22,354 bases of DNA, from positions 1-22,354 of the IMG/VR virus record IMGVR_UViG_3300044645_002359; one strand, written 5' to 3'. Shown in pieces: positions 2,594-22,083 of the stretch. The notes below the pieces were generated by a model, which saw only the letters and a program-made list of their open reading frames with translations, was not told the origin of the DNA and searched no databases. The position numbers and the translations under genes are program-made. This DNA is from a virus. Position 1 is the first letter of the stretch; each line of letters begins with the position of its first letter.

Positions 2594-2686
2594 GTCTTTT
2601 GCTTCAGCAAAAGGGTTCGGTTAACCGCCCTGAACCGTTCGGTTCACACCCTTGTTTCTGCTCCGCAGAAACGCTATCATAGAGTT
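2594..2686 (+). promoter_or_regulatory. leaderless promoter cassette 1
   Basis: Hairpin CTTTTGC..GCAAAAG, GGTTAACC, inverted repeat GAACCGTTCGGTTC, then -35 TTGTTT (2652-2657) inside GTTTCTGC..GCAGAAAC, a 17-bp spacer and -10 TATCAT (2675-2680). Exactly 6 nt separate the -10 from the ATG at 2687. Confidence 0.85.
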
Positions 2687-2953
2687 ATGGAAAGCACTTC
2701 ACGGATGAGACTGAAAGACTGGTAGAATCTTGGGCGTAACGCTCGAGTAGAGGGTGAGAACCAAGCAAGCTGGATTGCTCTTATTCAAGATGATCTGTCT
2801 CAACTAACTCACTCTGACGAAGCCTTTTTGTCAGGACACACCTCGCTATTGTCTTGGAGGCCCCTCTCAGCCTTCTCTCCCAAGATGATTAGCACGGGTC
2901 CCTCTCCCTTAATTCGTCAAGTTTTCGAGAGACCTTTTCGCTTCTTTCTCTGA
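2687..2953 (+). pseudogene. leaderless ORF with in-frame TAG at codon 13
   Basis: Starts 6 nt after the -10 of cassette 1, as at the other cassettes. The N-terminus MESTSRMRLKDW resembles MESTTSRRGILW of the cassette-driven gene at 16232. A TAG follows at 2723-2725; the same frame then stays open for 75 codons to a TGA at 2951. The part after the TAG looks coding at first (VEGENQASWIALIQDDLSQL) and less so towards the end. It may be a pseudogene, an amber readthrough gene, or a 12-aa leader peptide followed by chance. No function assigned. Confidence 0.45.
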
Positions 2954-3764: not shown

Positions 3765-3853
3765 TCTTTCGCTTCGCGAAAGTTCGGCTAACCGTCCCCA
3801 ACGGTTCGGTTCTCCCCCTTGTTTCTGCCCCGCAGAAACGCTATGATATAAGG
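3764..3853 (+). promoter_or_regulatory. leaderless-type promoter cassette 2
   Basis: Hairpin CTTTCGC..GCGAAAG, ACGGTTCGGTTC, -35 TTGTTT (3819-3824) in GTTTCTGC..GCAGAAAC, a 17-bp spacer, -10 TATGAT (3842-3847). Six nt later is a GTG opening a 21-codon frame ending at 3919 (VVERGLRPHLL...), itself made of two hairpins; probably degenerate. The transcript would run into tRNA-Leu(UAA). Confidence 0.8.
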
Positions 3854-3932
3854 GTGGTTGAGAGAGGGCTTCGCCCTCACCTCCTCCCTGGTTTTTGCGA
3901 AAGCAAAAAAGCAACTTGACAATTTAAACATT

Positions 3933-4348: not shown

Positions 4349-4478
4349 TTTTTGCTATCGCAAAAACCCAAAGCCATGGGTAACTGATGGCACAAAGGGT
4401 GTGAGTCCCGAGGGGAAAGCAACTGCAATTGTAATACCCGGCCCTTCAAAGTAACTTGCAGGTTTCTTCATAGGGATT

Positions 4479-4548
4479 TGGACGTTAGCTCAACTGGAAG
4501 AGCGCCGCCCACCGGTGGAGGTTGCGGGTTCGAGTCCCGTGCGTTCAA
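4479..4548 (+). tRNA. tRNA-like gene, formal anticodon CCG (Arg?)
   Basis: Acceptor TGGACGT/GCGTTCA, D-arm GCTC/GAGC and T-arm GCGGG-TTCGAGT-CCCGT are good. The anticodon arm CCGCC-CACCGGT-GGAGG has A instead of U33 and one G-A mismatch, and the variable loop is only 2 nt. Position suggests Arg(CCG); function is doubtful. Confidence 0.5.
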
Positions 4549-4609
4549 TTTGCCCTCAGGTGAAAGTCTAGGGGTAATAATTACCGGGAGATCAAACCCT
4601 GGTAAAAAA

Positions 4610-4686: not shown

Positions 4687-4710
4687 TTGTTTTGCGATAG
4701 CAAAACTAAG

Positions 4711-5530: not shown

Positions 5531-5604
5531 CGGGATGTAGCTCAGTTTGGTAGAGCCTTCGCTTTGGGAGCGAGAGGTCGCAGGTTCGAATCCTGTCATC
5601 CCGA
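5531..5604 (+). tRNA. trnP: tRNA-Pro(UGG)
   Basis: Acceptor CGGGATG/CATCCCG with C1-G72, anticodon loop TTTGGGA, T-arm GCAGG-TTCGAAT-CCTGT. A TATAAT box at 5509-5514 is a likely promoter for this gene. Confidence 0.94.
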
Positions 5605-5632
5605 TTGCCGTAATTAACACACGGTACAATAA

Positions 5633-5704
5633 CGCGGAGTAGAGAAGTAGAATCTCGTCAGGCTCATACCCTGAAGATCGCTGGTGCAAATCCAGCTTCC
5701 GCCA
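5633..5704 (+). tRNA. trnfM: initiator tRNA-fMet(CAU)
   Basis: Starts CGCGGAG and ends TTCCGCC-A, so position 1-72 is C.C and unpaired, the hallmark that allows formylation and blocks elongation use. Anticodon arm TCAGG-CTCATAC-CCTGA keeps only part of the three-G stem of standard initiators. The T-loop is TGCAAAT instead of TTCAAAT. Overall match to bacterial initiators is strong. Two other CAU tRNAs (10315, 13647) have paired acceptors. Confidence 0.9.
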
Positions 5705-5870
5705 TGTTTGCTCCAGCAAACCAACTATCTTGCATAACCTACCGGTTAGAGCGCGTAACGCTCGGTACCACCCCCCGAACGGGGTTCTCCCAGGCTTGTG
5801 CCCCAGGCCTGGAGCCTCCTGCCCCCTAAGGACAAGGTGCCCTACAAGGGCTTCCAGGCCCCTCTCAGAG
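5705..5870 (+). other. palindrome-rich noncoding spacer
   Basis: GC-rich stretch with stacked short inverted repeats (CCCCAGGCCTGG, GAGCGCGTAACGCTC, CCCCGAACGGGG) leading into promoter cassette 3. Frames across it look like non-coding translation of palindromes. A comparable spacer precedes cassette 5 (12128-12225). Confidence 0.5.
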
Positions 5871-5943
5871 GGGGCGGTAAGCCGACCCTTCCGGTTCGGT
5901 TCTCCGGCTTGTTTCTGCCTCGCAGAAACGCTATGATATTAAC
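5871..5943 (+). promoter_or_regulatory. leaderless promoter cassette 3
   Basis: GGGCGGTAAGCC, CCGGTTCGGTTC, -35 TTGTTT (5909-5914) in GTTTCTGC..GCAGAAAC, 17-bp spacer, -10 TATGAT (5932-5937), 6 nt, ATG at 5944. Confidence 0.88.
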
Positions 5944-6261
5944 ATGGAAATCACCGCTTCGTCATCGCCCCTTTCCCCCGCTGAGATGGTCATGGGTTTC
6001 GTACACCGGGCTCGCTCGTCCAGCTTTGCGGGCGGCTTCTCTGAGCGCGACTTTGCTGCTCATGTGCTTCTCTCCGCAGTTGATCAAGTTGATTTGGATC
6101 AATATTCGCGGGAAGCTTTTCTGGCGATCGCCGATGAATTGAGTCGCTATCGCCCGCTTGATATGGTCGAGGAACTGTCAGCCCGTCTTCGCCGTCGGGA
6201 AGCTAGCTTGCAGGCACGTCGTTTACGTCGTCAGCAGCGTATCGCAGACAGAGTAGAATAA
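5944..6261 (+). CDS. hypothetical alpha-helical protein, 105 aa, leaderless
   Basis: No family recognised. Residues about 10-75 look helical (PAEMVMGFVHRAR; FLAIADELSRY; DMVEELSARL). The C-terminus is a strongly basic helix rich in arginine (RLRRREASLQARRLRRQQR), which could bind nucleic acid. The start is fixed by the cassette: the ATG lies 6 nt after the -10. Codon use (CGT, CGC, GCG) is more GC-rich than its neighbours, and the only HIP1 octamer I found in the window lies inside it (6124-6131), hinting at a different or host origin. Confidence 0.8.
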   Translation: MEITASSSPLSPAEMVMGFVHRARSSSFAGGFSERDFAAHVLLSAVDQVDLDQYSREAFLAIADELSRYRPLDMVEELSARLRRREASLQARRLRRQQRIADRVE

Positions 6262-7119: not shown

Positions 7120-7205
7120 TTCGCTTCGCAAAGGTTCGGTTAACCGCCCCGAAACGTTCGGTTCTCACCCTTGGCAAGCCCTGGCAAAGACCCTATAGTT
7201 AGAGC
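7117..7205 (+). promoter_or_regulatory. leaderless promoter cassette 4
   Basis: Hairpin CTTTCGC..GCAAAG, GGTTCGGTTAACCG, AACGTTCGGTTC, -35 TTGGCA (7171-7176), 17-bp spacer, -10 TATAGT (7194-7199), 6 nt, ATG at 7206. The GTTTCTGC palindrome is replaced by a TGGCA direct repeat. Confidence 0.85.
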
Positions 7206-7382
7206 ATGAACGAAGACACCAAGCGGCGGATCCTTGAAACTCTCCAAGATGAGCGGGAGGCTCGGTCCAAGGCCCTTGCCTCGCGAGGTTTCACGAGTGA
7301 GCAAGCCCACGCTTACATCGCGGGATACACGGAATCCGTTCTCAACCGCATCCAAGAGCTTCTCTCTGATTCAATCTTGTGA
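7206..7382 (+). CDS. small hypothetical protein, 58 aa, leaderless
   Basis: Unrecognised, largely helical and charged (MNEDTKRRILETLQDEREARSK-type N-terminus, then SEQAHAYIAGYTESVLNRI). Start set by cassette 4. Its stop overlaps a GTG start at 7379 (GTGA), so it heads a three-gene overlapping string (7206, 7379, 7524) that looks translationally coupled. Confidence 0.75.
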   Translation: MNEDTKRRILETLQDEREARSKALASRGFTSEQAHAYIAGYTESVLNRIQELLSDSIL

Positions 7383-10314: not shown

Positions 10315-10386
10315 GGTTGGATAGTTCAGAGGTAGAACGGCTCTTTCATACGGAGTAAGTCGCAGGTTCGAATCCTGCTCCAGCCA
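10315..10386 (+). tRNA. tRNA with CAU anticodon (elongator Met or Ile2)
   Basis: Paired acceptor GGTTGGA/TCCAGCC, anticodon loop TTCATAC, T-arm GCAGG-TTCGAAT-CCTGC, A73. Not an initiator. Met versus lysidine-modified Ile cannot be decided by eye; another CAU tRNA is at 13647. Confidence 0.9.
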
Positions 10387-10423: not shown

Positions 10424-11262
10424 ATGCAGAGTTCTTTTTCAGCTAAAGCTATTGAGACAGTTAACCTTCTCCTGGGTAGTTCAGGCACACTTGACTACAC
10501 ACGTTGTGTAAGACCGGATGGTACCGCCTATGGGACTTCAGGTTCCTGTCGCAAGGGTACGCAGCAAAATAAAGCTGAAATTCGGAAGCTAAAAGCCAAG
10601 ATAAAAGAAGCTGAGGGGGTTATAGAGTACCAGCTGAAAGCAGGCGACCCGGCATACGCAAGTCTCTGGGCCAAGCGATTAGAGGAACACAAAAGAAAAC
10701 TAACCGAACTTGAGGGCAATGAGCCGGTCAAGCCAACTACAAAATCAAACGCTCCAGTCTTAACTGGCGTTGAAAAAAGCGCCTTGGTTAACTATATGAC
10801 CGGGGGCTCCATGGAAACTGGGAATTTGCTGGATATAAACTGGAGGCTCAGGGGATTAGGTGAAGGGCTGATCTCATCTACCGAAAACGAACAAATCAAG
10901 AATCTGGACTCAGCCTTGAAGAAACTACCCGGTAATTCGTCTGGGCAGGAGTTTTATCGGGGTGTATCTTTGGAGCCTGAGCAAGCCAGGAATCTCTTAA
11001 CTTCACTGAAAAGTCAAGGGTCGTGGAAAGACCCAGGTTTTCTTCCTACTCGCGAGACAGAGAACAGGCAGAAGAGTTTGCAGGTCAAGGGGAAGTTTCC
11101 GTCATTTTCATTACGCGGTCCAAAAACTTACGAGATGCCGGTAAATACGCTCCCGAAGAATTTTCGGATCAGCAAGAATCAATCCTCCCCCGGAATACCC
11201 CTTTAAGGGTTACAAACATTAAAAAAGACGGCGAGCTAATTGTGGTCCATCTGGCTGATTGA
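10424..11262 (+). pseudogene. ADP-ribosyltransferase-type effector, split by a -1 frameshift
   Basis: N-terminal segment (residues 1-45) with DYTRCVRPDGTAYGTSG, shared with the gene at 11351; then a charged coiled coil (45-95), a linker, and a C-terminal domain with the three marks of R-S-E ADP-ribosyltransferases: EFYRG (R179), GFSSYS (STS-like) and DQQESILPRNTPLRV (QxE). The first frame ends at 11206. The second half of the catalytic domain is in the -1 frame from the TTTT run at 11038-11041 to 11262; joined, the protein would be about 279 aa. QxE is typical of C3-like enzymes that modify Asn, but specificity cannot be deduced. A mutation, programmed slippage or a sequencing error could explain the shift. 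Compare phage-injected T4 Alt/ModA. Confidence 0.7.
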
Positions 11263-12225: not shown

Positions 12226-12324
12226 CAAAGGGTCGGTCTTTACTACGTAAAGGGTCGGTAAGCCGCCCTGAACCGTTCGGTTCCCACCCTTGGCCTTCGG
12301 TCACAAAGGTAGTATAGTATTTGT
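12226..12324 (+). promoter_or_regulatory. leaderless promoter cassette 5
   Basis: Two hairpins (CTTTGCTGAGCAAAG, CTTTACTACGTAAAG), GGTCGGTAAGCCG, GAACCGTTCGGTTC, -35 TTGGCC (12290-12295), 17-bp spacer, -10 TATAGT (12313-12318), 6 nt, ATG at 12325. Confidence 0.87.
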
Positions 12325-12621
12325 ATGAAAAGCGACCTCACTCCCGTCCACTTCGCTGCTATTGAAGAAACGCTAACCCTGATCGGTAGTGGGTTCGAAC
12401 CACGCAGTCTCATGAACAAACTTCTGTTCGATCTTTTTCCGAACGAAGACCAAAAGTTCTTGGATTACTGGGCTGGTTACAGGTTCGTTCACCTAAAAGG
12501 AACTGCTTTTCTGTCGAGTCGAGAATGGATCCTGACAGACATGGTTCGCGAAGTTCTTCAAGGCACTGCCCAAAAGTGGTTTGAAGATTGGCTTCAAGAG
12601 CACGGTCAGGTAGCTGCCTGA
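12325..12621 (+). CDS. hypothetical protein, 98 aa, leaderless
   Basis: Unrecognised. Predicted helical (FAAIEETLTLIGSGF; SLMNKLLFDLF; WILTDMVREVLQGTAQKWFEDWLQEHG), acidic, rich in Trp/Phe. The start is set by cassette 5. tRNA-Arg(UCU) follows 9 nt after the stop, so gene and tRNA are likely on one leaderless transcript. Confidence 0.8.
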   Translation: MKSDLTPVHFAAIEETLTLIGSGFEPRSLMNKLLFDLFPNEDQKFLDYWAGYRFVHLKGTAFLSSREWILTDMVREVLQGTAQKWFEDWLQEHGQVAA

Positions 12622-13072: not shown

Positions 13073-13142
13073 GCGGTGAACCGAACGAACCGGTTCGGTT
13101 CGCAGCCTTGTTTTCGCCTCGCGAAAACGCTATGATTATTGT
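13073..13142 (+). promoter_or_regulatory. leaderless promoter cassette 6
   Basis: GGCGGTGAACCG, AACCGGTTCGGTTC, -35 TTGTTT (13108-13113) within GTTTTCGC..GCGAAAAC (a compensatory variant of the usual palindrome), 17-bp spacer, -10 TATGAT (13131-13136), 6 nt, ATG at 13143. Confidence 0.9.
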
Positions 13143-13337
13143 ATGAAAACAGCCTACCGAGTCGACGTCATCACTGGAACCAACAAGCGCAACCGGCGTG
13201 AAGTTGTCAATCGAGACGGATTTACCGTTTTCAGTGAAGCCCAGCGTTGGCGAGATTCGGTAGCTCGTGAAAATCCGCAAGCGTTGGTTGTAGTTACCGC
13301 ATACGCTTCTCCAGAGAGCCTACTAATTAGGCTCTGA
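13143..13337 (+). CDS. small hypothetical protein, 64 aa, leaderless
   Basis: Unrecognised; alternating strands and one helix (YRVDVITGTNKRNRREVVNRDGF, FSEAQRWRDSVARENP, ALVVVTAYAS) suggest a small alpha/beta fold. Start fixed by the 6-nt distance from the -10. Heads a run of five small genes and a tRNA up to 14094. Confidence 0.8.
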   Translation: MKTAYRVDVITGTNKRNRREVVNRDGFTVFSEAQRWRDSVARENPQALVVVTAYASPESLLIRL

Positions 13338-13646: not shown

Positions 13647-13719
13647 GCTCCTTTAGCTATCTGGTGAAAGCAGCAAACTCATAATTTGCCTCAGACGTGT
13701 TCGATCCACGTAAGGAGCA
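13647..13719 (+). tRNA. tRNA with CAU anticodon (elongator Met or Ile2)
   Basis: Acceptor GCTCCTT/AAGGAGC, anticodon arm GCAAA-CTCATAA-TTTGC, T-arm ACGTG-TTCGATC-CACGT, A73. With the initiator at 5633 and the CAU tRNA at 10315, one of these two is probably the AUA-reading Ile2. Confidence 0.88.
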
Positions 13720-16134: not shown

Positions 16135-16231
16135 GGAGGTTCGGTCTTTGCTACGCAAAGGACGGTTACCCGAACCGACCCGTTCGGTTCCCCCCCTTGT
16201 TTCTGCACTGCAGAAACGGTATAGTATATGT
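16135..16231 (+). promoter_or_regulatory. leaderless promoter cassette 7
   Basis: Hairpin CTTTGCTACGCAAAG, GACGGTTACC, GACCCGTTCGGTTC, -35 TTGTTT (16197-16202) in GTTTCTGC..GCAGAAAC, 17-bp spacer, -10 TATAGT (16220-16225), 6 nt, ATG at 16232. Confidence 0.9.
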
Positions 16232-16624
16232 ATGGAAAGCACTACCTCTCGCCGTGGAATCCTCTGGTTGTCTGACCCAGACCAAGAGTTTCGGGTGTGC
16301 ACAACCTTTGCCAACGCTGCACGCCACTTGCATGTGACTTTGCAGTTTGGGATTTATGAGAACGAGATTCCTGCCGGGATTTTGGGTCACACTTTCTCTG
16401 TTCGGGCTACAAGCATCTGTTACAATACCCGAATTCAAGCTTTGCGCGTAGAACTGCCTACCGAACTCCAAGACGTTTGTCAAAACGAAAACCCTCATAT
16501 GACAATCTCGATGATTCCTGGAGTTCGCCCCGTTGAGTCAAACGAGATGTTGCAGGGTTCCTATCATTCCGAGTCAGTAGACTTTGAAATGTCTCTCATC
16601 TGCGAATTTTCACCCTTCAACTAA
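16232..16624 (+). CDS. 2H phosphoesterase (LigT/CPDase-like), 130 aa, leaderless
   Basis: Two HxTx motifs, the catalytic signature of the 2H phosphoesterase superfamily: HVTL at residues 34-37 (context RHLHVTLQFG) and HMTI at 89-92 (context PHMTISMIPGVRPVESN), about 55 residues apart. Members open or form 2',5' or cyclic 2',3' phosphodiester ends on RNA, including tRNA fragments. Length is short for the family (usually about 180), so it is minimal or divergent. The longer upstream frame is ruled out because the ATG at 16232 is placed by the cassette. A role in RNA-end repair or nucleotide-signal removal is inference. Confidence 0.7.
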   Translation: MESTTSRRGILWLSDPDQEFRVCTTFANAARHLHVTLQFGIYENEIPAGILGHTFSVRATSICYNTRIQALRVELPTELQDVCQNENPHMTISMIPGVRPVESNEMLQGSYHSESVDFEMSLICEFSPFN

Positions 16625-18042: not shown

Positions 18043-18104
18043 CCGTCCCGAACCGTTCGGTTCCCACCCTTGTTTCTGCGTTTCAGAAACGCTATAATAT
18101 GATT
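18031..18104 (+). promoter_or_regulatory. leaderless promoter cassette 8
   Basis: GGCGGTTAACCG, GAACCGTTCGGTTC, -35 TTGTTT (18070-18075) in GTTTCTG..CAGAAAC, 17-bp spacer, consensus -10 TATAAT (18093-18098), 6 nt, ATG at 18105. An ATG at 18099 lies between -10 and predicted start point and would not be transcribed. Confidence 0.92.
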
Positions 18105-18629
18105 ATGAAGAAACCAACCTACACCATTTCAGCGGTAAACACCGACGGCTCATCCGAGTTTCCTCGTCCCGAATGTCTACCTCAAGCTGGCGATGTCCTT
18201 GTGGTTGAAAAGCCTTTCAGGACTCTGGCTGGTTATGACTATCAAGTTGGTTCTAGGCTGCGTCTTATTGAGCGAACGCTAGATGCCCCTTTTAGACTTC
18301 TCAGTTCTCTTGGTAATTGGGTGGTAGAATGCCCATTTCAAAAGTCCGTATGGACCAATATTGAGCTGATGATTGCTGAGGGGACGTTGAGTTGTGACAG
18401 GGGACCCGAAGCTGGGGAATGGCTACCGATTAGTACCGCTCCAAAAGAATACAAACCTTACTCAATGTTTGTCGTGATTGCTATGGATGTCACCGTTGGC
18501 GCCGCGATCCGCTATACGACAGACCCCTATTGTGTTTACCGCACGGGCGGAACATACGTGAGGTGGCCACACTTTTTTCCTCCAACACATTGGAGGCCAC
18601 TCCCTGATTATAACCCAAAAACCAAATGA
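18105..18629 (+). CDS. hypothetical protein with DUF551-like C-terminus, 174 aa, leaderless
   Basis: Cassette geometry selects the ATG at 18105 over that at 18099. Residues 1-100 (beta-rich: AGDVLVVEKPF; YDYQVGSRLRLIERT; NWVVECPFQ) look like a small barrel. The C-terminus carries GEWLPISTAPKEYKPYS and PPTHWRPLPD, the WxPIxTAPK..THWxPLP pattern of DUF551, frequent in phages and prophages and of unknown function. Stop overlaps the next ATG (ATGA). Confidence 0.8.
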   Translation: MKKPTYTISAVNTDGSSEFPRPECLPQAGDVLVVEKPFRTLAGYDYQVGSRLRLIERTLDAPFRLLSSLGNWVVECPFQKSVWTNIELMIAEGTLSCDRGPEAGEWLPISTAPKEYKPYSMFVVIAMDVTVGAAIRYTTDPYCVYRTGGTYVRWPHFFPPTHWRPLPDYNPKTK

Positions 18630-20691: not shown

Positions 20692-20762
20692 GACGGTTAA
20701 CCCTCCCGCCCGGTTCGGTTCTCCGGCTTGTTACTGCAACTTAGAAACGCTAAACTTATTCC
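20692..20762 (+). promoter_or_regulatory. leaderless promoter cassette 9 (weaker)
   Basis: ACGGTTAACC, CCCGGTTCGGTTC, -35 TTGTTA (20728-20733), degenerate palindrome, 17-bp spacer, -10 TAAACT (20751-20756), 6 nt, ATG at 20763. Most diverged copy, but both spacings are kept. Confidence 0.8.
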
Positions 20763-21050
20763 ATGAAAGACGAACAACACGCCACTTTAAGCCACGAAAC
20801 AACATCGGAGGAGCGTCCTATTTGCTTCCTTAAAATTGAACTGGCCCCGAAAGATGGCCGCCCTATTTGGGCTAAGGGGTATATTTGGGGTGATACTTCT
20901 GGTTCCTTGGGCACTTTTTGTGTATGGGCCTATTGGGACGGAAATGTTTGGAAAGAAGCTGGAGTAGAGAACTCAAGCCTTAATTCCCGTCACCTGTATG
21001 AATACATGCCCCTTACACTGAACTCTGCTGTCAGAGATATACCAATCTAG
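20763..21050 (+). CDS. hypothetical protein, 95 aa, DUF551-like pattern, leaderless
   Basis: After a polar N-terminus, residues 24-80 read KIELAPKDGRPIWAKGYIWG, then FCVWAYWDGNVWKEAGVENS and YEYMPLTL: the (T)APKDGxPIxxxG..W.DG.W pattern resembles the domain of the cassette 8 protein (18105) and similar small phage proteins. Function unknown. Stop codon TAG. Start set by cassette 9. Confidence 0.75.
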   Translation: MKDEQHATLSHETTSEERPICFLKIELAPKDGRPIWAKGYIWGDTSGSLGTFCVWAYWDGNVWKEAGVENSSLNSRHLYEYMPLTLNSAVRDIPI

Positions 21051-21474: not shown

Positions 21475-22083
21475 ATGACCAACTTCCCACCCACAATCCC
21501 ACAAATTAAAGCACTTCGTGAAAAAACTGGGGCAGGTATGATCCTTTGTAAGGAAGCACTTATTAACTCCAAAGGCGATGAAGCAGGGGCAATCACTTGG
21601 CTGCGCCAAAAGGGTATTGTCTTAGCTGATGGTAAAATTGGTAGGGCTGCCAAAGAAGGGATCATCTCCAGCTATATCCATACAGGTGGCAAGATCGGTG
21701 TACTCATCGAAGTGAATTGCGAAACTGATTTTGTGGCAAGATCTGGGCCATTCCAAGAGTTCGTTCGCACTTTGGCAATGCAAATCGCAGCTTGCCCCTC
21801 CGTTAATTACATCTCAATTACCGAAATTCCAGAGTCTATTCTTTTGGACGAGACACGGATCGAAATGAGCAAGGAAGATCTTGCAAAGAAACCCGAAGCA
21901 ATGCGTGGCAAAATTGTTGAAGGTAGGGTAGCCAAACGTTTCAAGGAAATGTCTTTGATGGACCAACCATATATCAAAGATGGCACAATGACTATCGAGA
22001 CTTATGTCAAAAACTTCGCTGCTACGGTTGGCGAAAACATCGTTGTGAAGCGATTCGCTCGCTTCGTTCTCGGCAACTCCTGA
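21475..22083 (+). CDS. tsf: translation elongation factor Ts (EF-Ts), 202 aa
   Basis: Recycles EF-Tu from GDP to GTP form. The N-terminal UBA-like domain has LREKTGAGMILCKEAL (14-29) and ITWLRQKGI; the core has EGIISSYIHTGGKIGVLIEVNCETDFVAR (about 62-90), with the TDFVAR signature that contacts the EF-Tu G domain; the C-terminus has MDQPYIKDGTMTIETYV and GENIVVKRFARFVLG. The length and the phrase AMQIAACPSVNYIS match the short cyanobacterial/chloroplast form rather than E. coli EF-Ts (283 aa). No ribosomal protein S2 gene precedes it, unlike the usual chromosomal rpsB-tsf order, supporting a mobile copy. Known huge phages carry EF-Ts; the host-derived lineage suggested here is inference. Confidence 0.96.
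   Translation: MTNFPPTIPQIKALREKTGAGMILCKEALINSKGDEAGAITWLRQKGIVLADGKIGRAAKEGIISSYIHTGGKIGVLIEVNCETDFVARSGPFQEFVRTLAMQIAACPSVNYISITEIPESILLDETRIEMSKEDLAKKPEAMRGKIVEGRVAKRFKEMSLMDQPYIKDGTMTIETYVKNFAATVGENIVVKRFARFVLGNS

Follow-up and report, generated by a model that had tools for sequence, protein, structure and literature searches.

An A18·G55 initiator tRNA as a probable member of a phage-encoded translation kit

Why should a phage carry an initiator tRNA of its own, and is that tRNA tied to leaderless genes? This question is raised by a tRNA gene at positions 5633–5704 of the window, i.e. the whole stretch analysed here, which spans positions 1 to 22,354 of an IMG/VR virus record (G000) 201,260 bases long. 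An earlier note on this DNA had described the gene as a tRNA-fMet with an unpaired C1·C72, carried with elongation factor Ts (EF-Ts) and suited to a specialised leaderless mode of initiation. ARAGORN and Rfam agree on a tRNA-Met(CAT) with exactly these boundaries (RF00005, 53.6 bits, E=3.7e-9), the CAU anticodon lies within the match to the tRNA covariance model, and the 72-nt sequence is predicted to form a clean cloverleaf in which the two C residues at positions 1 and 72 leave no Watson-Crick pair, which confirms the first of these claims. With A11-U24 in the D stem (GAGA/TCTC), the CAU anticodon and the 1-72 mismatch, the gene is, by its sequence, of the bacterial initiator type. Its anticodon stem, TCAGG/CCTGA, holds A29-U41, G30-C40 and G31-C39; of the three G:C pairs at 29-31/39-41 that typify bacterial initiators without strictly defining them, two are therefore present. 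Its anticodon loop is CUCAUAC with C38. The altered three-G stem remarked on earlier is therefore real but, as described below, ordinary for phage initiators, in which G29-C41 is rare. The G in the T-loop TGCAAAT is likewise confirmed, as G55; overlooked were the matching change of D-loop G18 to A, of which this G is one half, and the fact that the gene is one of 35 tRNAs in the window.

Few features of tRNA are as universal as the contact between G18 and U(Ψ)55 at the elbow. We scanned IMG/VR for CAT tRNAs whose anticodon stem is initiator-like and whose T-loop is either UGCRAAU or, separately, UUCRAAU (U55); in viral contigs the former scan returned the A18·G55 initiator pattern from at least 120 stretches, and the latter also matched at least 120 stretches. 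After removal of duplicates and checks of the stems, 94 G55 and 103 U55 sequences were tallied among the matches listed. A18-G19 was present in 92 of these 94 listed G55 initiator-like phage tRNAs, and G18-G19 in 103 of the 103 listed U55 ones (Fisher p about 6e-55, a value that overstates the evidence in that shared ancestry is ignored and viral contigs are not independent). The tRNA at 5633–5704, with A18-G19 in the D-loop and a UGCRAAU T-loop, fits the A18·G55 class. Initiator features are similar in the two groups, with position 1·72 mispaired in 79/94 G55 vs. 76/103 U55 and A11-U24 present in 69/94 vs. 81/103 (among the matches listed). G29-C41 was found in just 8/94 and 30/103 of them, respectively (absent from 86/94 and 73/103 of the matches listed), and since this pair is mostly missing from phage initiator-like tRNAs, and also from the cellular KatS3mg098 initiator described below, A29-U41 should be no bar to membership among initiators.

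The coupling is not limited to CAT tRNAs. Over the full set of ARAGORN tRNAs from the viral loci, G55 was found in only 7 of 1,157 non-CAT tRNAs, and on our reading of their D-loops all seven carry A-G at 18-19, although three of these loops also hold GG just before the A-G. The seven elongator genes are Lys-TTT, Leu-TAA, Arg-ACG, Arg-TCT, Gly-TCC, Ile-GAT and Thr-GGT, and their T-loops read TGCRANN or AGCGTTR. That the coupling spans seven different anticodons points to a direct contact of position 18 with position 55 and to multiple origins. Outside the clade of this phage, a scan without a T-loop condition found G55 in 4 of ~22 CAT tRNAs, a small sample. In this class both bases of the elbow contact G18·U(Ψ)55 are exchanged together for A18·G55, with G19-C56, the 1·72 mismatch and A11-U24 kept.

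In cells the A18·G55 pattern is rare, being present in 60 contigs of a collection that represents 84,980 species by a single genome each. Many of these matches fall in Patescibacteria, some in Bacteroidota and others elsewhere (carriers include KatS3mg098 and Adlerbacteria, Saccharibacteria and Muribaculaceae MAGs), and no cyanobacterium is among the 60 contigs. Most of the 60 have A18·G55, with a few that are not initiators or have GG; the result is pattern-based and derives mostly from MAGs, with one complete genome. With a pattern accepting both loops, the A18·G55 tRNA was the only match in 16 of the 19 genomes searched, and in the remaining three, all alphaproteobacterial, it accompanied ordinary initiators as an extra copy, which is what one would expect of a mobile element. 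In the complete genome, the 562-kb Parcubacteria KatS3mg098, ARAGORN finds two CAT tRNAs, an A18·G55 initiator with T29-A41 and an ordinary elongator, and the G55 loop occurs in no other tRNA of this genome. As the former is the only initiator found there, the A18·G55 elbow would be compatible with initiation of a whole proteome. Keeping in mind that it is often the only matching initiator in cells, this complete genome included, we interpret the class as very probably functional.

Relatives of the phage were found through EF-Ts. The exact 72-nt initiator recurs in four of the five close relatives (G001, G002, G004 and G013) and differs by 1 nt in the fifth (G005). The other same-anticodon tRNAs have median best identities of 0.80 in G001, 0.69 in G002, 0.68 in G004 and 0.69 in G013, medians that include replaced, non-orthologous tRNAs. 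Because the initiator is 100% identical while the other tRNAs of these relatives diverge, it looks to be under strong selection, although recent recombination of the segment may contribute part of the conservation, since the flanking spacer and, in some relatives, also tRNA-Pro are nearly identical. The order Ala-Pro-fMet-Val is retained in G001 and G002, in both of which, as partial records, the initiator is the only CAT tRNA found. A further relative, G015, has 49 distinct tRNAs in the stretches read, and its initiator-like tRNA is a different one, canonical at the elbow and poorly paired in its stems; the A18·G55 form is therefore not required even within this group.

The surroundings of the gene are listed in Table 1. 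The spacer immediately upstream may act in processing or as a promoter. Short hairpins of the TTTGC..GCAAA type lie directly 3' of several tRNAs (e.g. 4687–4707 and 5706–5721), and they resemble the palindromes in the spacer of the promoter cassette described below. As the other two CAT tRNAs of the window are an elongator type and probably Ile2, the phage would seem to separate initiator from elongator. Two tRNAs, at 2165–2237 and 4478–4549, have anticodon loops that are abnormal to ARAGORN (TTCG and AC) and are decayed-looking or unusual decoders. A tRNA-like stretch at about 195–266 (..CGCTTTGCAAGCG..GGTTCAATTCC..), called by neither ARAGORN nor Rfam, is perhaps a decayed tRNA-Ala.

Table 1. 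Positions of the initiator tRNA gene, its parts and related features (window coordinates unless marked G000 or L002)
Feature	Position	Strand	Basis or detail
tRNA-fMet (CAU), C1·C72 unpaired, A11-U24, no encoded CCA	5633..5704	+	ARAGORN; Rfam RF00005; cloverleaf
D-loop AGTAGAA	5646..5652	+	A18 (5649), G19 (5650) replacing G18-G19
Anticodon arm TCAGG-CUCAUAC-CCTGA	5658..5674	+	sequence; C38 instead of A38
T-loop TGCAAAT	5685..5691	+	G55 (5686) replacing U55
tRNA-Pro(UGG), upstream neighbour	5531..5604	+	ARAGORN
Spacer with small inverted repeat CCGT..ACGG	5605..5632	+	near-identical in relatives (flank comparison)
Hairpin GTTTGCTCCAGCAAAC, directly 3' of initiator tRNA	5706..5721	+	sequence
Second CAT tRNA, elongator-type, canonical elbow	10315..10386	+	ARAGORN
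Third CAT tRNA, probably Ile2 (CAU) or elongator Met	13647..13719	+	ARAGORN; putative identity
Elongation factor Ts	21475..22083	+	PF00889 E=5.8e-30; 22 viral relatives
Permuted tmRNA	G000 24423-24732 (L002 2423-2732)		tag ANKIVKFERTAVAV
Cassette TTGTTT-17-TATGAT-6-ATG of ORF at 5944, nearest to tRNA	5889..5946	+	profile score 62.2
Cassette ending on ATG	2632..2689	+	profile
Cassette ending on GTG	3799..3856	+	profile
Cassette ending on ATG	7151..7208	+	profile
Cassette ending on ATG	12270..12327	+	profile
Cassette ending on ATG	13088..13145	+	profile
Cassette ending on ATG	16177..16234	+	profile
Cassette ending on ATG	18050..18107	+	profile
Cassette ending on ATG	20708..20765	+	profile

The initiator is one member of a near-complete phage tRNA set, with ARAGORN finding 35 tRNAs in the window and 38 in the whole record. 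EF-Ts is indeed encoded in the window, as pointed out previously, but it lies 15.8 kb away and is not adjacent to the tRNA. The record further contains a permuted tmRNA with the tag ANKIVKFERTAVAV (Rfam RF04321, 73 bits) and encodes a Mu-type portal, a terminase and gyrase A; the tmRNA tags of relatives are either near-identical to ANKIVKFERTAVAV or of the ANNIV type. Searches of six phage records for IF1, IF3, peptide deformylase and Met-tRNA formyltransferase found none, and a search for near-identical DNA among known phages and plasmids returned isolated tRNA matches only. One tRNA of the record matches cyanophage S-CRM01 at 87%, and the record encodes a DUF1517 protein, of a family known from cyanobacteria and plastids. 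Together with the permuted tmRNA and the lack of an encoded CCA in the tRNA at 5633–5704, these two features suggest a cyanobacterial host. As to other gene content, there is a weak ADP-ribosyltransferase match at window positions 10424–11206 (PF03496), whose E value of 3.8e-4 does not reach the cut-off set for the family. Two Tet/JBP oxygenase-domain proteins, an amino acid:DNA transferase and a histone-deacetylase-domain protein are encoded at 80726–82213, 83416–84411, 89786–90802 and 98146–99225 of the record, and the oxygenases and the transferase together probably stand for DNA base hypermodification.

On this evidence we consider it likely that the gene at 5633–5704 encodes a working phage initiator tRNA that belongs to a structural class of its own and forms part of a phage translation kit. 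Host MetRS would charge the tRNA, host formyltransferase would formylate it and a host enzyme would add the CCA, and the initiator, the near-complete tRNA set, EF-Ts and tmRNA could then sustain phage translation when the host tRNA pool falls or is attacked. Without U55 the tRNA can be no substrate of Ψ55 synthase. An altered elbow should be tolerated in an initiator, since initiators are brought to the P site by IF2 and do not pass through the A site with EF-Tu; such an elbow may also help to keep the tRNA off EF-Tu. As a side benefit, more fMet-tRNA would favour the approximately 30 leaderless phage genes considered below.

A different purpose would be evasion of nucleases, with the phage initiator replacing a host initiator cut by an infection-triggered anticodon nuclease and being itself, through C38 (A38 in the host) and the altered elbow, a poor substrate. 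Changes in the anticodon loop have been proposed to protect phage tRNAs in this manner from VapC, PrrC and colicins (PMC10264068), and C38 is indeed found in all six A18·G55 copies of the clade, while A38 prevails in phage initiator-like tRNAs (66/85 and 101/118). However, C38 also occurs in elongator-type CAT tRNAs, and phages generally avoid tRNA-fMet where VapC-LT2 targets tRNA-fMet (PMC10264068), and we thus regard this explanation as unlikely.

As regards the leaderless genes, the promoter cassette consists of TTGTTT (the -35 box), a 17-bp, often palindromic spacer, TATNAT (the -10 box), exactly six bases and then ATG or GTG. Searched with a profile, the record yields 37 such sites, of which 29 end on ATG, GTG or TTG, and shuffled sequence yields none. 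TTG-N(16-18)-TANNNT was also counted ahead of the ATG of ORFs no shorter than 50 codons, with 23 cases at spacing 6 and 0–3 at every other spacing. The usual distance from a -10 box to the transcription start is 6–7 bases. It is this fit that makes the cassette leaderless in type, and it strongly supports the view that many start codons lie at the transcription start; the leaderless promoters of the earlier note are therefore real as an architecture, their leaderless status being read from promoter spacing. The cassette appears to be a leaderless-type expression unit that has multiplied across the left part of the genome. It is present in the inner EF-Ts relatives examined (G001, G002, G004, G005 and G009–G015) and absent from the outer ones (G016–G020), many of these records being partial. 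With simple gene calling, Shine-Dalgarno usage came out weak overall, a tentative result in view of uncertain choices of start. A second motif, resembling GGGTAAARTT, lies ~25–40 nt 5' of many starts in the structural region (121000–200000 of the record; e.g. upstream of 145908, 154503, 162892 and 185858) and is probably a late promoter.

Given this architecture, the tRNA could be carried specifically for leaderless translation, with raised initiator levels letting 70S ribosomes start at the 5'-terminal AUGs of transcripts from the cassette promoters. About 30 cassette genes do have ATG or GTG exactly 6 nt past the -10 box, and cassette and tRNA occur together in the present record and in G001, G002, G004, G005 and G013. 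The idea is also mechanistically sound, since in vitro, according to a review, leaderless translation gains strongly from extra fMet-tRNA and canonical translation only mildly (PMC9031893). Nevertheless, while the tRNA class is found in at least 120 viral stretches and in bacteria, just 5 stretches were found to hold the exact cassette pattern, and at least four of these belong to this clade. Further, carriers of the class are no more leaderless than other phages: promoters at spacing 6 numbered 20 vs. about 8 at other spacings in G55-initiator phages, 12 vs. about 6 in phages with ordinary (U55) initiators and 11 vs. about 5 in other viral contigs. The same mild excess in all three groups led us to reject a link between initiator class and leaderless promoters across phages. 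Moreover, G002, G004 and G013 keep the identical tRNA despite weak leaderless enrichment, the initiator-like tRNA of the cassette-rich G015 is canonical at the elbow, and a tRNA that sits within a near-complete set needs no special purpose. No phage-encoded leaderless factor was found in searches for factors other than IF2. What stands of the specialised initiation proposed earlier is that the tRNA is of initiator type, retained and unusually conserved in cassette-bearing genomes; the specific link is not supported, as there is no association across phages and the two do not occur together across relatives more often than expected, with the class common without the cassette and carriers showing no additional leaderless enrichment. 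A special tie to the leaderless genes is plausible; that the tRNA is carried specifically for them seems to us improbable. Since nothing in the comparison singles out the leaderless link, we prefer a general role in the translation kit, with the leaderless genes as likely beneficiaries.

It is highly improbable that the gene is a functionless passenger decaying in a hypervariable tRNA array, as might be read from its odd loops, the two array tRNAs with abnormal anticodon loops and the degraded look of the G015 initiator-like tRNA, since it is 100% identical across relatives whose other tRNAs diverge strongly, its two loop changes are coupled rather than random, and the same loop pair belongs to the only initiator found in some cells.

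The preferred reading, that of a functional initiator within a translation kit, can be tentatively extended. The A18·G55 tRNAs might form a separate lineage or convergent class of initiators in which the elbow was rewired from G18·Ψ55 to A18·G55, which was spread by phages, became the sole initiator of some Patescibacteria and Bacteroidota, and marks the phage initiator as chemically distinct (no Ψ55, altered recognition by EF-Tu and nucleases), possibly biasing initiation toward leaderless mRNAs; as a whole we hold this more elaborate view to be possible but doubtful. A coupled natural swap that is concentrated in initiators, enriched in phages and carried by the sole recognisable initiator of some bacteria may show which elbow contacts initiation needs, and the A18·G55 initiator could serve as an orthogonal initiator scaffold of natural origin. 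It also makes testable the question of whether a phage uses its own initiator to control the use of start sites, with leaderless mRNAs responding most to initiator levels.

With bacterial tRNA-fMet, such as the product of E. coli metY/metZ, the phage tRNA shares CAU, a 1·72 mismatch, A11-U24, G30-C40, G31-C39 and the cloverleaf, and it differs in having A18·G55 for G18·U55, a seven-base D-loop, A29-U41, C38 and no encoded CCA; the E. coli initiator has C1·A72, and the phage tRNA C1·C72 instead. Phage-encoded initiator tRNAs are already known. The matches in Pseudomonas phage D3, Komagataeibacter phiKX1 and Mesorhizobium phage Cp1R7A-A1 (78–88% identity over the matched part) are phage-borne tRNA-Met resembling initiators, and a wastewater huge phage carries fMet genes, described in passages that do not mention the coupled elbow class (PMC10747093). 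A description of A18·G55 initiators as a class was not found in the literature searched, which consisted largely of open-access journal papers. The A18·G55 initiators of Patescibacteria and some Bacteroidota have the same D- and T-loop pair, initiator ends and A11-U24, but they are chromosomal and the only matching initiator, and must therefore serve all start sites and not a phage subset. The non-proteinogenic tRNA-Gly of Staphylococcus aureus has also lost GG at 18-19, a loss that goes with weak EF-Tu binding (PMC4052509), although it is a cell-wall substrate and not an initiator, and has UU or CU, not AG, at these positions. Finally, as in the tRNA arrays of huge phages and cyanophages, a large tRNA set and translation factors are found here in a large phage genome; this phage differs from them in that the initiator is the best conserved tRNA in four of five close relatives, and in that many genes of the left half lie behind leaderless-type cassettes.
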